The translations under genes and the position numbers were made by a program. The notes under the pieces were generated by a model, which searched no databases, was not told the DNA's origin, and was given only the letters and a program-made list of their open reading frames with translations. Below, piece after piece: positions 2,050 to 60,178 of a stretch of 64,000 nucleotides of DNA (position 1 is the stretch's first letter; each line of letters begins with the position of its first letter). The stretch is from an uncultured Rikenellaceae bacterium (GTDB lineage Bacteria; Bacteroidota; Bacteroidia; Bacteroidales; Rikenellaceae), in contig CAMQVY010000005.1 of assembly GCA_947038405.1 (NCBI GenBank), positions 1 through 64,000 on the forward strand, in the 5' to 3' direction.

Positions 2050-4728
2050 TTATTTTATAATTTTCCCCATTTTATTTTTTGTATCTACTAAATCTTTCAC
2101 ATTTAAGTTTCTGTTGTGAAATAGCTGTACTCCATCTGTCGGAGAGATTATTGTTTCCGAAACAAGTTCAATTAAGTCAACTTTTTTTACTTTTTCGCCT
2201 AAAGGAGGGAATATCAAAGTTAAACAGATACTTTTATTTTTCTGATCTTTAACTACTAACCCTTGTCCTAGTGGTATATCATTTTTTATACCTCTAATTT
2301 TATATCTATTTTCTGTTTTGTAATCCATCAAGTATGTGTTTTCACTCACACCAAACCAATACATATTGTTCGAAGGTGTAATCACAAAGTCTACTAGTGT
2401 CTCGGTCTCTTTATTCTCTATACCAATAGCTCTCTCATGTAATAAAGGGCTAAATATAGGATATCTATGCTTACTATCTTTGTCAAATACAATATAATCA
2501 GGAAGTCCATTGATTTGATCCTCTCTTAATGTGTAGTCTTGTGATGTATTGCCATTAAAAGTTTGGGTTGTTGATGTTGTTCCTGAAATTTTTCTACGTT
2601 GTAGTTTCTTGGCATCTAGGTTTAGGATAAGCATAGGACTGCCGTTTGACGGTGGTACTAAAGTCTCATATGCCTTCTCAATGAAATCTAATCTATTTAC
2701 TCCTGGATCCAATGGTTCGAAGATTAGAGTGAAGCAAATATCTCTGTCTTTATAGCCTTTGACGATCAGTAGCTCTTCTAGTGGCATTCCTCCTTTTATA
2801 CCTTTTATTTTGTACTGTTTGCCTGTCTTTGTATCTACTAAACACGTGTTTTGGCTCAGACACCACCAATATACATCGTAGCTTGGTCTAAGAACAAGAT
2901 CTACTAATGTCTCATTTTCGGTAACTTCGATACCAATAATATTTTCACCATATGATCCCCATTTATTTGTTTTAACATATTTCATGTAGTCTGGAACAGC
3001 ATTAATTTGAGCATCACTTAGTGTGTAGTATTTTTCTGGATCATCATATCTTGACTTCACTGGAGTTGTAACTTTGCCCTTATGAGTTGGCATTTTTATG
3101 TCTCTCGATTCTCGTTGTATACCATCTTTCTTCAATAGATGGGTTGAAATTAATTCAGACACTGGATCTCCAATCATATCTGGTCTTCCAAAAATTTCTA
3201 CTAATGTAGCAATATCTTTATCACTAGGTCTAGTGTCTCCTGTAACTACAACTGTTTTTGAATTACTATTGTTTTTATTGTATAGTATATTTATGGCTAG
3301 ATTGTTGCTCGAAGGTACTATTACACTTATTTTGTTTAAATCTCCGGATTTGTCTTCAACATAATAAGTAAGTGTCTCCTTGGAGGTATCTTCGGGTACA
3401 AATTTATAACGCAGTCTTGCTTGTGGATATTTCTTTTTCAGTGAGTCACTGATCGTATATGTAGTGAAAAATTGCTCTGCTGCTGCCTTGTTATTTTTTG
3501 ATGATGTTGCTGCATTATCTTTAGGTGTTTCGTTGTCCTTCACTATAAGTTCAGCAGGGAACACTGAGTCCTTGGGAGCGGATGTAGTGTATAACTTAAA
3601 TGTAGTACTCTTTTCGTTCTTATCGTCTTTGGTTGAGGCATCCGCAAGTTTCACATACATTTCCCCATCATTACTAATAGATTGTGTATCACTTACCTTC
3701 TCTGAGCTATTTTCTGACACCTTATCTTTTGGTGAGTTATCAGCTTCCACGTGCTTAAATGAAACTAATACAAAGGCTCCAACTAGGGATACCGTAGCAA
3801 TAGAAGCTCTAAGTGCGAAGTATTTAAATGTTTTTTTATCTTTCATCATGATCATACGTTTTTTTATAAGAGAGTGGTTGAATCCATTCGCTATAATTGG
3901 CGACTTGGATAATATCTCTTCAAATAGGTAAATTTGATATGTTTTAATATTTGCACCGTTTTTTATGACGTTATTATCGGCTTGAAATTCGTGTATAGAG
4001 CCTAATTCGTTGCGAACAAGCCATACTATGGGGTTAAACCACATAAATACGCACATTAGTTCCGATACATTTTTATCTAAGTAGTGGCGATTCGAGATAT
4101 GGGAGAGCTCATGTTGTATAATCATGTTTAACTTATCCCCTTGCGCAGCTCTATTTACAAAGATATCACGCATAAAGGAGAATGGTGTCTCCACTAATGC
4201 ACTGCGATGTAATTCTATCCCATTGCAATTCTCACGAGTAGCCCATCTTTTGATTGAGCGTATTTTTTGTACCTGATGACCTACTATAAACGTTCTAATT
4301 AGGATTACTAAGATGTATAAAGCCCCTAGAATAGATGCTACGTTCAATAGACCATTAATGTTTGTATCTTGTTCTTGTATTACTAGTGGTTTAATTTGAA
4401 CTTGAGGCTCAAAATTAATAGGCATGGTAGTCGGCACTACAACTTGAGAGGTGGACTCATTTGTATTATCGACTAAATCGATAACTAAATTTTTAATCTG
4501 TTGAACTTTCGGATTCTCCCCTCCCATACTTTGCACCTTTTCAGGTACTGGTATTACGTTAAAAGATGAAGATGCACCAAGTAGGGCAACAATTGGAATG
4601 AGGAGTAGATAAGCTCTAGTGAAGTTATACCGACATTTATACCTAAGAAATAGGATATACACGAGGTATAATATAGCTGATACTCCAATAAATTCCATTA
4701 AAAATATTAAAATCTCAATCGATCCCAT
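2050..4728 (-). CDS. BlaR1/MecR1-type M56 sensor metalloprotease with duplicated C-terminal domain
   Basis: 892 residues. The N-terminal third has several membrane segments and the M56 zinc motif HELSH (206-210) with Glu247 in HEFQAD as probable third ligand. This is the cytoplasmic protease of the BlaR1 class, which inactivates its partner repressor after signalling. Another membrane segment follows near 305-325, then a long low-complexity Ser/Asp/Lys region. There is no penicillin-binding sensor domain. Instead the C-terminal part carries two related copies of a roughly 135-residue unit, each opening with YTL-x3-QIN-x2-PDY and containing a TLVD segment. It lies 8 bp after the BlaI-like gene on the same strand, so they form one operon. 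The sensed ligand is unknown; beta-lactam sensing should not be assumed. Confidence 0.85.
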   Translation of the reverse strand: MGSIEILIFLMEFIGVSAILYLVYILFLRYKCRYNFTRAYLLLIPIVALLGASSSFNVIPVPEKVQSMGGENPKVQQIKNLVIDLVDNTNESTSQVVVPTTMPINFEPQVQIKPLVIQEQDTNINGLLNVASILGALYILVILIRTFIVGHQVQKIRSIKRWATRENCNGIELHRSALVETPFSFMRDIFVNRAAQGDKLNMIIQHELSHISNRHYLDKNVSELMCVFMWFNPIVWLVRNELGSIHEFQADNNVIKNGANIKTYQIYLFEEILSKSPIIANGFNHSLIKKRMIMMKDKKTFKYFALRASIATVSLVGAFVLVSFKHVEADNSPKDKVSENSSEKVSDTQSISNDGEMYVKLADASTKDDKNEKSTTFKLYTTSAPKDSVFPAELIVKDNETPKDNAATSSKNNKAAAEQFFTTYTISDSLKKKYPQARLRYKFVPEDTSKETLTYYVEDKSGDLNKISVIVPSSNNLAINILYNKNNSNSKTVVVTGDTRPSDKDIATLVEIFGRPDMIGDPVSELISTHLLKKDGIQRESRDIKMPTHKGKVTTPVKSRYDDPEKYYTLSDAQINAVPDYMKYVKTNKWGSYGENIIGIEVTENETLVDLVLRPSYDVYWWCLSQNTCLVDTKTGKQYKIKGIKGGMPLEELLIVKGYKDRDICFTLIFEPLDPGVNRLDFIEKAYETLVPPSNGSPMLILNLDAKKLQRRKISGTTSTTQTFNGNTSQDYTLREDQINGLPDYIVFDKDSKHRYPIFSPLLHERAIGIENKETETLVDFVITPSNNMYWFGVSENTYLMDYKTENRYKIRGIKNDIPLGQGLVVKDQKNKSICLTLIFPPLGEKVKKVDLIELVSETIISPTDGVQLFHNRNLNVKDLVDTKNKMGKIIK

Positions 4729-4736
4729 AATGTGCT

Positions 4737-5099
4737 CTATTTTTCGTTAATAATAGCTATAAGTTCCTCTTTCTCCTTTTCAGTCATACTCTCTTTTTTT
4801 ACGAAAAAAGATATTAATGATAGAGCTGAGTTATCGAAAAAAGTTTTTTTAGCACTTTTCAAAAAGAAATTAGTGTACTCTTCTTGCGATACAAGAGGGT
4901 AGTATCTAAAGCTCTTTCCAAATGTTTCGTATGAAACGAACCCTTTGTCAACAAGGATGCGCATCATTGAAGATATTGTAGTGTATGCTGGACGTGGTTC
5001 TGGTATATTGTTTATGATATCATTTAAGAACCCTTGTTCAATTTTCCACAATATTTGCATTGTTTCAAGTTCAAGTTTTGTTAAGTGTTTATCTTTCAT
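4737..5099 (-). CDS. BlaI/MecI-family winged-helix repressor
   Basis: 120 residues, the usual BlaI/MecI length. The N-terminal half is a winged helix (LTKLELETMQILWKI, then AYTTISSMMRILVDKGFV as the recognition region) and the C-terminal half is the short helical dimerisation segment. It is the first gene of the operon with the M56 sensor protease, whose relatives cleave such repressors. A promoter and a pair of AACTAA/TTAGTT-type dyads sit directly upstream, the arrangement expected for autorepression. No beta-lactamase gene is nearby, so its other targets must lie elsewhere. Confidence 0.9.
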   Translation of the reverse strand: MKDKHLTKLELETMQILWKIEQGFLNDIINNIPEPRPAYTTISSMMRILVDKGFVSYETFGKSFRYYPLVSQEEYTNFFLKSAKKTFFDNSALSLISFFVKKESMTEKEKEELIAIINEK

Positions 5100-5139
5100 A
5101 ATAGTTATTTTTTTTTGTACTCTATTTGTTCTCTTTTCA

Positions 5140-5184
5140 CAAATATATAACTAATAATTTAATTGCACAACTAATCTTTTAGTT
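5140..5184 (-). promoter_or_regulatory. blaI promoter with two overlapping operator dyads (block A)
   Basis: On the minus strand the -7 box is TATATTTG (5147 to 5140) and TTG lies at 5170-5168, 20 bp upstream. One dyad (5149-5164, AACTAA...TTAATT) fills the spacer and a second (5169-5184, AACTAA...TTAGTT) overlaps the -33 element. The dyads start 20 bp apart, about two helical turns. Binding by the BlaI-like protein is inferred from position and symmetry. Confidence 0.65.
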
Positions 5185-5210
5185 ATTGTAAGGTAAATAA
5201 AAAAAACTAT

Positions 5211-5268
5211 GTTGAGTGTGATCACACACCGCTGCCCGCATAGGACAGTTCTCTACTTATATCAAACT
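5211..5268 (+). repeat. Two-hairpin dispersed repeat, copy R3
   Basis: Hairpin 1 at 5216-5229 is GTGTG, loop ATCA, CACAC: both arms have changed relative to R1 so pairing is kept. Hairpin 2 at 5232-5248 is CTGCCC, loop GCATA, GGACAG (one mismatch). The tail ATCAAACTA matches the family. It sits between the two operator blocks. Confidence 0.8.
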
Positions 5269-5377
5269 ATTTTTAGGAGTTAAGTCCAATCATCTATCAA
5301 CGCTCGCAGAGAAATATGTATTAAGCTAACTTTTCATATGATTTAATTTTTAAGGTTTAGTTTTGAAGTCTTCATTG

Positions 5378-5422
5378 CAAATGTATAACTAATTATTTAA
5401 TTATACAACTAAAGTTTTAGTT
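5378..5422 (-). promoter_or_regulatory. Second BlaI-type promoter/operator (block B)
   Basis: This repeats block A about 238 bp upstream. The -7 box is TACATTTG (5385 to 5378) with TTG at 5408-5406, spacing 20. Dyads lie at 5387-5402 and 5407-5422; the latter is a perfect 7+2+7 palindrome. It points the same way as block A, towards blaI, with repeat R3 between them. Confidence 0.6.
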
Positions 5423-5609
5423 ATACATAAAAAAGATGATGTAGTATCGTGTAATATATTAGTTGTTAGTTTATTATGTGGGAGGTGTATTGTGCGAAAT
5501 TTAATTGTGGAGAGTATAGGTGCTCTATATTTGTATAGCACTTATATAAAATTTTATTGAAAACGATCTTTTCTTTTGTGACTTTGTAAGAACTATTTAA
5601 TAAAAGAAC

Positions 5610-5764: not shown

Positions 5765-5770
5765 AAAATA

Positions 5771-5820
5771 GTTCAGTGCGACTGCGTACAGTAGCCCATA
5801 TAGGGCAATTAATTTAAACT
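5771..5820 (+). repeat. Two-hairpin dispersed repeat, copy R4
   Basis: Hairpin 1 at 5776-5789 (GTGCG, loop ACTG, CGTAC, one G-T pair) and hairpin 2 at 5794-5806 (GCCC, loop ATATA, GGGC). The second stem is kept although its loop differs from the other copies. It ends 19 bp before the rlmB start codon, so it would be in the leader of that mRNA if transcribed from upstream. Confidence 0.7.
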
Positions 5821-5839: not shown

Positions 5840-6571
5840 ATGGCAAAGAACATTGTTTTTGGAATACGTCCAATAATTGAGGCGATTGAGACAGGTAATC
5901 AGATTGATAAGATATACTTTCGTAAGGGAGCTGATGGACAACTCATCAATGAGTTAAAAGATATATGTCGCAGACATAAGGTAAATATTCAAGAAGTACC
6001 TATCGAGAAGTTAAACCGTTTGACAACTGGAAATCACCAAGGTGTCGTAGCTTTGATGGCGGCTATTGAGTACGTTGAGCTAGATGATATTATCGATGGA
6101 ATCCCAGAGAACGAAACACCTTTGATTGTGGTTTTTGATGGTGTAACAGATGTTAGAAACTTTGGAGGTATTGCTCGTAGTGCTGAGTGCGCTGGTGCTC
6201 ACGGATTGATTACACCTATTAAGAGTTCTGCACCAGTTAACGCTGATGCTATTAAGACTTCGGCTGGAGCACTTACTCGTATTCCTGTTTGTAGAGTTGG
6301 TAGTATTAGAACTACACTTAGATCTCTTCAAGTTAATGGATTCCAGATTGTTGCAGCTACGGAGAAGAGTACAACTCTTATTTATGACGCTGATTTCTCT
6401 AAGCCAACAGTACTTGTTATGGGTAGTGAGGATTTGGGTATCTCAAGAGAGGTTATGAAGTTGTGTGATGTTCAGCTTGCAATTCCTTTGGTTGGAGAGA
6501 TTGAGAGTTTGAACGTTTCTGCTGCTGCGGCAGTAATGCTTTACGAAGTAGTAAGACAAAGAATCCACTAG
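5840..6571 (+). CDS. rlmB: SpoU-type 23S rRNA (guanosine-2'-O-)-methyltransferase
   Basis: 243 residues, the standard length for the TrmH/RlmB branch of the SPOUT superfamily. The N-terminal substrate-binding domain begins with FGIRPIIEAIE. The three SpoU motifs follow: DVRNFGGIARSAECAGAHG, VMGSEDLGIS, and IPLVGEIESLNVSAAAAVMLYE at the C-terminus, which forms the trefoil-knot AdoMet site. It would 2'-O-methylate 23S rRNA (G2251 in E. coli). The M20 deacylase gene starts 50 bp later on the same strand. RlmB is the best fit among SpoU paralogues, though TrmH or other 2'-O-methylases cannot be fully excluded. Confidence 0.9.
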   Translation: MAKNIVFGIRPIIEAIETGNQIDKIYFRKGADGQLINELKDICRRHKVNIQEVPIEKLNRLTTGNHQGVVALMAAIEYVELDDIIDGIPENETPLIVVFDGVTDVRNFGGIARSAECAGAHGLITPIKSSAPVNADAIKTSAGALTRIPVCRVGSIRTTLRSLQVNGFQIVAATEKSTTLIYDADFSKPTVLVMGSEDLGISREVMKLCDVQLAIPLVGEIESLNVSAAAAVMLYEVVRQRIH

Positions 6572-43644: not shown

Positions 43645-44241
43645 TTAATAATTTTTCAGACATGTATCAATAAAAGAGAGAATTTCTTCTTTTCCTGTTT
43701 TTTTCTCTGCTGAAGTAACGAACATTGTTGGGAGTTCTTCCCATTGTTCTAATAATCTTTTTTTGAATGCAGCGATATTGGAGTGTGTCTGACTGGTAGA
43801 TTGTTTGTCGCACTTAGTAAATACAATGCCAAAGGGGATACCCTGATTTCCCAACATTTCAATAAATTCAAGATCTATTTTTTGCGGCTCAAGTCTTGAG
43901 TCAATAAGTACAAACAGATAGTGCATCTTGTCACAGTTCTGTACGTAATTAAGGATTAATTTTGAAAACTCGCCTCTAGCTTGCTTTGAAACTCTCGCGT
44001 AGCCATATCCAGGTAAGTCGACGATATACCAACCATTATTGATTGTAAAGTGATTAATGAGTTTTGTTTTTCCTGGAGTTCCACTCACTTTTGCTAATCC
44101 ATTTTTTGAAGTTAGCATATTGATTAACGATGATTTACCAACGTTACTTCGTCCGATAAATGCAAATTCCAAAAAATCATCATTAGGTATTTGTGAGAGC
44201 TTTTGGCTACTACACTTAAATTCCGCTGAAGTTATATTCAT
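43645..44241 (-). CDS. engB: Ribosome biogenesis GTP-binding protein YsxC/EngB
   Basis: 198 residues of the EngB branch of TRAFAC GTPases. G1 is GRSNVGKSS, G2 lies in GTPGKT, G3 is DLPGYG and G4 is TKCDK; G5 appears as TSAEKKTG. It assists assembly of the large ribosomal subunit. It is a single gene with its own promoter (TTG-19-TACCTTTG). Confidence 0.95.
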   Translation of the reverse strand: MNITSAEFKCSSQKLSQIPNDDFLEFAFIGRSNVGKSSLINMLTSKNGLAKVSGTPGKTKLINHFTINNGWYIVDLPGYGYARVSKQARGEFSKLILNYVQNCDKMHYLFVLIDSRLEPQKIDLEFIEMLGNQGIPFGIVFTKCDKQSTSQTHSNIAAFKKRLLEQWEELPTMFVTSAEKKTGKEEILSFIDTCLKNY

Positions 44242-44269
44242 TCTATGTAATTAAAATATTTAATATCGG

Positions 44270-44299
44270 CAAAGGTAATAAAAACTAATAGTTTCCCAA
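44270..44299 (-). promoter_or_regulatory. engB promoter
   Basis: On the minus strand TACCTTTG (44277 to 44270) with TTG at 44299-44297, spacing 19. Confidence 0.6.
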
Positions 44300-44348
44300 C
44301 TATATAAATACTATTTGTTGGTTGTGTGACCGCCATAGTACATAAAAA

Positions 44349-44384
44349 AAAGAGCAGAGTGTCAATGAAGACAATCTGCTCTTT
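44349..44384 (-). terminator. Rho-independent terminator of gapA
   Basis: AAAGAGCAGA pairs with TCTGCTCTTT (10 bp) around a partly structured 16-nt loop; a T-run follows on the minus strand. It is 19 bp past the gapA stop. Confidence 0.85.
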
Positions 44385-59220: not shown

Positions 59221-59534
59221 AAACTAGGCTAAGAACTGCCCTCCGCGGGCTACGCTGCGTGATCGCAGAGAACTTATACATTATAACAAACTAAACTCAC
59301 TAAAAATTTGGTCAAACTTTATAAAGTTTGTTGCCAAAGGCAGTTTTGTAAGACTAGACTACGAACTGCCCTTCGCGGGCTGCGCTGCGTGATCGCAGAG
59401 AACTCATACATTATAACAAACTAAACTCACTAAAAATTTGGTCAAACTTTATAAAGTTTGTCGCCAAAGGCAGTTTTGTAAAACTAGACTACGAACTGCC
59501 CTTCGCGGGCTGCGCTGCGTGATCGCAGAGAACA
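59221..59534 (-). repeat. Tandem array of three two-hairpin repeats (R10-R12), period 130 bp
   Basis: Cores start at 59234, 59364 and 59494 and are nearly identical. On the minus strand each has hairpin 1 (CTGCG, loop ATCA, CGCAG) and hairpin 2 (GCCC, loop GCGGA or GCGAA, GGGC). The spacers contain a perfect palindrome CAAACTTTATAAAGTTTG (59313-59330 and 59443-59460) and a CAAATTTTTAGTGA motif like that between R1 and R2. The array fills the gap between ABC ATPase and permease genes. Confidence 0.9.
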
Positions 59535-59536
59535 GA

Positions 59537-60178
59537 TTATAAATAAATAATTTTATCGTATTCCATTACCATATCTTTACCTATTGAGGTGACTATAACT
59601 CCAGCCCCAGTCTCTTTAACTTCCTCCATAAGGAGTTTTGATACCTCCATAGAGGTGTTGTCATCAAGGTGACTCGTTGGTTCGTCAAGAACAATAAAGT
59701 CGAATGGTTGACATAGTGCTCTGATTAATGCTACACGTTGTTTTTGCCCATATGATAGTTTTGATACTAGAAAATCCTCTCTTTGTCCAAGTCCAAGCCT
59801 TGCCATCGAAGAGGTAATCCACTCATTAGTACGGTAGTTAGTAAGAGAGTTCTTAATTAAAATATTCTCAATGGCAGACATTCCGTCAAATAGCATGAGA
59901 CCTTGAGGTAGATAAGACAAACACGTTTGGCGCAGAGAGCTCCAACTCTCTGCATCAAACGTGTTTATATTCTTTTCATCAAAGCAAATTGCACCTTTAT
60001 AATCATCTCTATATCCTATAATATAGCTACAAAAAGATGATTTTCCACGACCTGATTCCGATTTTACGAGGTATTTTTTACCCTTTTCAAATACAATATC
60101 ATTACCCCATAGTGATGAGTTTGTCTCCATATCAGAGAATACCCTTGGGATGCAACCGTTTAATTTTATAGTTATCAT
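59537..60178 (-). CDS. ABC transporter ATP-binding protein (LolD/MacB-type)
   Basis: 213 residues. Walker A is SESGRGKSS, the signature is LSYGQKQRVALIRAL and Walker B is FIVLDEPTSHLD. Compact size and sequence fit the ATPases that pair with FtsX/LolCE-like permeases. Its ATG follows the DUF4836 gene stop with no gap, so the two are translated together. The likely permease is encoded beyond the repeat array at 58002-59195. Confidence 0.9.
   Translation of the reverse strand: MITIKLNGCIPRVFSDMETNSSLWGNDIVFEKGKKYLVKSESGRGKSSFCSYIIGYRDDYKGAICFDEKNINTFDAESWSSLRQTCLSYLPQGLMLFDGMSAIENILIKNSLTNYRTNEWITSSMARLGLGQREDFLVSKLSYGQKQRVALIRALCQPFDFIVLDEPTSHLDDNTSMEVSKLLMEEVKETGAGVIVTSIGKDMVMEYDKIIYL

Follow-up and report, generated by a model that had tools for sequence, protein, structure and literature searches.

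Two tandem candidate BlaI-type promoter/operator blocks upstream of a blaI gene in a Rikenellaceae bacterium

Upstream of the blaI-type gene in the window, by which we mean the whole 64,000-nucleotide stretch of DNA that was analyzed, there are two tandem-dyad blocks of the same design, here called A and B, and these blocks are real and more than chance. As an explanation for the arrangement as a whole, we favor with moderate confidence that A and B would be tandem BlaI-repressed promoters, of which B would be the promoter of a since-lost first gene and would itself still be in use.

Two blocks of one design and the neighboring genes

The genes and blocks of the region are listed below.

4737-5099, minus strand: blaI-type repressor gene, 120 aa (PF03965, E 3.4e-28; matches to solved MecI/BlaI structures)
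2050-4728, minus strand: blaR1-like M56 metallopeptidase gene, 892 aa, with two C-terminal repeats (PF05569)
5840-6571, plus strand: RlmB/SpoU-type rRNA methyltransferase gene, divergent neighbor (profile match)
5140-5184, minus strand: block A, candidate promoter/operator of blaI, from sequence reading, repeat search, own-genome pattern scan and matrix scan; -7 box TATATTTG at 5140-5147, inner dyad at 5149-5164, outer dyad at 5169-5184, TTG at 5168-5170
5378-5422, minus strand: block B, second candidate promoter/operator, designed as A, from the same searches and conserved in the sister genome; -7 box TACATTTG at 5378-5385, inner dyad at 5387-5402, outer dyad at 5407-5422, TTG at 5406-5408

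The PF03965 match spans residues 6-118 of the 120 in the BlaI-type protein, which also matches MecI (1okr, E 4.2e-9), and the protein is predicted to belong to the BlaI/MecI family (PF03965), with the penicillinase repressor domain extending over the whole of it. The BlaR1-like protein contains the HEXXH motif as HELSH and gave a match to PF05569 (E 5.8e-12), which was the only Pfam family matched; no Pfam match to a penicillin-binding sensor domain was obtained, and the NCBIfam model blaR1_generic scored 32.4 bits against a cut-off of 400. The protein is an M56 peptidase, but the name blaR1, as used in the preliminary description, needs care without a match to the penicillin-binding domain, and for the same reason the signal need not be a beta-lactam.

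The genus sample consists of two genomes, that of the window (G000) and a sister genome (G001). Between these, the BlaI-type proteins are 96% identical and the BlaR1-like proteins only 73% (838 codons aligned), which suggests fast evolution of the sensor part of the latter. The two C-terminal repeats of the BlaR1-like protein are shared with a separate secreted-type protein that is encoded before blaI in a relative, G002. A gene for an M60-type (enhancin-like) peptidase (309-1856) follows the blaR1-like gene on the same strand after 193 bp, and since this gene order is kept in the sister, the M60 peptidase may be one of the products controlled with the operon. Contig C8 of the window genome (856-1197, locus L039) has another BlaI-type gene, with 34% identity. 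As judged by eye, another operator-like dyad, AACTA-N7-TAGTT, is present twice ahead of this gene, 21 bp apart, and it is kept at the corresponding sister locus, L038.

Read on the minus strand, block A (5184 to 5140) is AACTAAAAGATTAGTTGTGCAATTAAATTATTAGTTATATATTTG and block B (5422 to 5378) is AACTAAAACTTTAGTTGTATAATTAAATAATTAGTTATACATTTG. Both follow a common plan of a TTG, a 20-bp spacer and a TAnnTTTG element (TATATTTG or TACATTTG), and in each block one dyad of the AACTAA-N4-TTAGTT type is located inside the spacer and another over the TTG, with dyad starts 20 bp apart. The repeat search recovered A and B as a direct repeat of 47 nt with 87% identity and a start-to-start distance of 238 bp. 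The preliminary description of two blocks of the same design at this distance, both oriented to blaI and with a copy of the repeat R3 (5208-5268) between them, was thus confirmed, as was its statement that B has the more perfect palindrome, the arms of the outer dyad being 7 bp in B as compared to 6 bp in A.

The genome of the window (2,382,558 bases, 94.7% complete) was searched with the 36-bp tandem pattern, and with up to three mismatches A and B were the only matches, each on both strands, as compared to 1+1 matches for the backward control. Single 16-bp dyads with at most one mismatch were recovered at chance level from the same genome (119+128 matches versus 135+128 for the backward control), which would fit with A and B being a chance likeness in AT-rich DNA. 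However, a position matrix built from 39 blocks of other genomes gave scores of 52.6 for B and 46.2 for A, whereas the maximum over 20 Markov-shuffled windows was -0.2; the next-best site in the window scored -6.6, leaving aside readings of A and B themselves. Both blocks also passed the 45-bp block test (up to three mismatches, close upstream of blaI) with one mismatch each, and the control gave no match in 492 genomes. A chance likeness is already refuted for the tandem block, and we regard its probability as negligible.

A genome-wide dyad search had been suggested earlier for defining the regulon, and its outcome was divided: the tandem pattern is specific to A and B, but single dyads could not be used for this purpose in the window genome, where their number is that expected by chance and a perfect dyad on contig 33 is located within a coding frame.

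A single block before blaI in Bacteroidales

With up to three mismatches, the 45-bp block was identified in 49 of 200 genomes from the family and in 79 of 295 genomes from the order, representing 62 of 184 genera, and in both samples the control gave no matches. The two samples overlap in G000, G019 and G036, and together they yield 127 of 492 distinct Bacteroidales genomes. Among the matches listed for the family, 46 of 53 block places lie no more than 300 bp upstream of a same-strand blaI match (median 57 bp), while three are 857-1106 bp upstream of blaI and for four the listed matches include no blaI; left out of the 53 places were 34 further matches in G069, a genome with operator-like dispersed repeats, and six opposite-strand block readings. 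In the upstream DNA examined from family loci L040-L067, many of which are among the training blocks of the matrix, exactly one block with a score above 20 was present at 23 of the 28 loci. The remaining five scored between -3.7 and 10.3; by eye, two dyads with different spacings are present at four of these loci and a single dyad at the fifth, L052.

The location of the block before blaI across the family and the order supports its identification as a candidate BlaI-type promoter/operator, and so does the absence of variation at its recognition positions in the two genus genomes, where other positions vary. From these sequence patterns, a single block is predicted to be the normal autoregulatory promoter/operator of blaI in Bacteroidales. 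Block A would be one of these, since a single block of the same design normally precedes blaI. The comparison also provides an operator definition for the Bacteroidales BlaI type, two dyads 20 bp apart over the -33 element and the spacer, which can be used for regulon searches.

Two other genomes in the samples may be mentioned here. G069 (loci L097-L102) has 35 matches to the block pattern. Seven of these were inspected; they are 36-bp repeats in intergenic DNA, almost self-complementary and lacking a proper -7 box (e.g., L100:1175-1210), which gives the impression that operator-like palindromes have become dispersed over the genome. On contig C69 of G013 (locus L103, 676-4039), one M56 gene is located between two blaI genes, all in the same direction, with a pattern-matching block ahead of the first blaI only.

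Conservation of block B and the DNA downstream of it

Among the 492 genomes, G000 and G001 are the only ones in which two intact blocks were detected on one strand no more than 300 bp apart, and this two-promoter architecture was not detected in any genome outside the genus. The nearest other case, in G462, is a degenerate match with three mismatches and no good -7 box, located 84 bp from an intact block. The doubled block is unusual, and it is a real but modest variant of known regulation.

The four sites had been suggested in the preliminary description to allow DNA looping. In such a case BlaI, bound jointly at A and B, would hold the 238 bp of DNA in a loop, and repression would become tighter or graded. 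The recognition positions of all four dyads are invariant in the two genomes, as would be expected if they acted together, but the spacing between A and B is 238 bp here versus 167 bp in the sister, a difference that shifts the phase by about a quarter turn if one turn is 10.5 bp. Moreover, in the other relatives that gave a match, a single intact block is present near blaI, which weakens the suggestion further since autoregulation from a single block is the rule, and BlaI-family repressors are dimers, which also speaks against a loop. Phase-dependent looping is unlikely, and joint binding with looping in any form seems quite improbable to us.

When the two genomes are aligned, most of the gap upstream of B aligns poorly, with the exception of about 47 nt nearer rlmB, but B and the 13 nt following its -7 box show hardly any differences. 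The genomes differ at 7 of 45 positions in A and at 3 of 45 in B. Across the four blocks (A and B in both genomes), none of the 30 recognition positions is variable, as compared to 9 of the 15 other positions (Fisher p 5.6e-6). Differences at four-fold sites amount to 24/104 in rlmB, 57/227 in blaR1 and 15/36 in blaI, and under these neutral rates the 3 changes in B have p-values of 0.004, 0.0016 and 1e-7, respectively; for the absence of changes at the 30 recognition positions, the values in each block are 4e-4, 2e-4 and 8e-8. The 7 changes in A as a whole are not significant at the rlmB and blaR1 rates, and there is no significant difference between the change counts of A and B (p 0.31). Within the sister, only three positions distinguish A from B, and both dyad centers are shared, which may be due to gene conversion.

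Block B has no intact gene of its own and a stub ORF behind it, as might be expected of a non-functional fossil, or else B could be a recent duplication that has not had time to decay. Yet the duplication predates the split of the two genomes and the flanks share no similarity, and the fewer changes in B than neutral sites predict, together with the unchanged recognition positions, argue that B is not a decaying fossil. We consider either version very improbable.

The following features were identified downstream of B and in the remainder of the gap.

5338-5377, minus strand: leader after B, 40 nt, of which the first 13 nt are identical in the sister
5326-5337, minus strand: ATG-stop stub MKS*, present in both genus genomes
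5208-5268, minus strand: R3 copy with two hairpins between the blocks, candidate 3' end of the B transcript
5199-5206, minus strand: T8 run directly after R3, terminator-like candidate
5769-5810, minus strand: second R3 copy of the blaI-rlmB gap, in the rlmB leader region

The ATG behind B is located 40 nt from the -7 box (38 nt in the sister), and the corresponding distances for blaI behind A are 40 and 38 nt. In the two genomes, the stub reads ATG AAA AG(T/C) TA(G/A), with differences in the S and stop codons, and MKS* may be what is left of the beginning of a lost gene, or else a minimal ORF. Besides MKS*, no conserved ORF was found in the B-A interval of the two genomes compared, and another ATG, where the leader begins, gives unlike short peptides in the two.

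The repeat R3, about 60 bp in length, is dispersed and has two hairpins, and copies are located in the window at 30-91, 173-233, 5208-5268, 5769-5810 and 59225-59537. Within its helices, 5 of 11 pairs are changed on both sides (0/500 shuffles), a covariation that is suggestive, the copies being related. In the stretches examined, R3 copies are mostly located between convergent genes or behind genes, at their 3' ends, and the two copies of the blaI-rlmB gap are the exception to this placing in the window genome. The repeat is often found in arrays with a period of 125-150 bp, and since several of these are at contig ends, the arrays may exceed the assembled length.

Block B could also be a live promoter from which a short RNA is made, its length about 170 nt in the window genome and about 110 nt in the sister, and its end at R3 and the T run. 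This RNA, with or without the three-codon ORF, would be the only target of BlaI other than the operon of BlaI itself. Such an RNA would account for B and the first 13 nt of the leader being the best conserved part of the gap from the upstream side of B to A, for the retention of MKS* with changes confined to the S and stop codons, and for the two covarying hairpins of R3 followed by the T8 run. However, the body of the transcript is strongly different between the genomes, with about 70 bp present in one only, and the covariation is a property of the dispersed R3 repeat as such. In addition, the predicted fold of the B transcript was not clearly better than that of shuffles (z -0.55 and -1.2), a simple scan identified no standard terminator, and no Rfam family scored above its gathering score. 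We regard a short RNA as possible but doubtful. Somewhat less probable is the more specific proposal that in this genus BlaI controls just one target outside its own operon, namely a small RNA from promoter B with a conserved three-codon ORF and an R3 double-hairpin end, born from the shell of a lost gene.

A lost first gene and comparison with known systems

That B was the promoter of a lost first gene is suggested by the ATG-stop stub, by the R3 copy after the stub and by relatives with the order block, secreted-type gene, blaI. This order was identified in five relatives (G002, G025, G033, G088 and G182), and according to our own reading the first genes of all five start with a signal-peptide-like stretch. 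The first gene in G002 codes for a 315-aa protein that shares the C-terminal repeat of the BlaR1-like protein in the window; when the window genome was searched for a homologue, the matches were confined to these C-terminal repeats and a single locus on contig 13. In G025 and G033, the first gene codes for a DUF5128 propeller protein and a thioredoxin-like protein, respectively, while G088 and G182 have an aspartyl-protease-like protein, for which the Pfam match was made on the G088 copy; the blaI match in G088 is located at 44026-44379.

Under the lost-gene explanation, A and B would be two BlaI-repressed promoters in tandem. By analogy with the BlaI/MecI family, BlaI would bind each dyad as a dimer, covering the TTG and the spacer beside the -7 box and thereby blocking RNA polymerase, and signaling by the M56 protease would relieve repression at both promoters. 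A would be the usual autoregulatory promoter of blaI-blaR1, while B would once have been the promoter of a secreted protein or lipoprotein gene, the first of the operon. This gene would have disappeared, leaving behind the leader, the MKS* stub and an R3 element typical of gene ends. The operators and the -7 box of B appear to be under selection, which suggests that B still works, and most simply it would today provide this operon with an additional promoter/operator set under BlaI control.

The earlier suggestion that the distal block once served a gene now lost is thus favored by the stub, R3 and the five relatives, but the stub is the only remnant that was found: elsewhere in the genome, 5130-5440 matches only R3 copies, leaving aside its match to itself and one reversed block reading. 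A further point against a lost gene is that the other R3 copy of the gap is located 30 bp before rlmB and not at a gene end. Also, the loss of a gene gives no reason for B being kept afterwards. If correct, the doubled block would be a small case of regulatory DNA outliving its gene. More generally, the operon plan of block, secreted-protein gene, blaI and M56 gene appears to be a recurring one in which the first gene varies, and this gives a hint as to the signals and targets of these BlaI/M56 pairs.

In the open-licence PMC literature searched, no description was found of the Bacteroidales block or its doubling, and nothing in the consulted sections of PMC12578637 concerns a BlaI operator in Bacteroidetes. 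A gap with several BlaI operators has a precedent in the bla divergon of Bacillus licheniformis, where, in the sections consulted of PMC3305447, OP1, OP2 and OP3 are located between the divergent blaP and blaIR1. The region studied here resembles that system in having a BlaI-family repressor beside a BlaR1-type M56 protein, predicted autoregulation of blaI-blaR1 and several candidate operators in one intergenic gap. It differs in that both promoters have the same direction, to blaI, with no adjoining beta-lactamase gene, and in that the dyads are paired 20 bp apart on a Bacteroidetes promoter. As for the promoter itself, the sigma-ABfr consensus of Bacteroidetes is given in the sections seen of PMC7366714 as a -7 TAnnTTTG and a TTTG at about -33. 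The blocks are similar in their -7 TAnnTTTG and the TTG at about -33, but unlike sigma-ABfr promoters they have operator dyads overlapping the promoter elements. Compared to the single-block blaI promoter of Bacteroidales, the design and the place before blaI are identical, with two blocks here instead of one.
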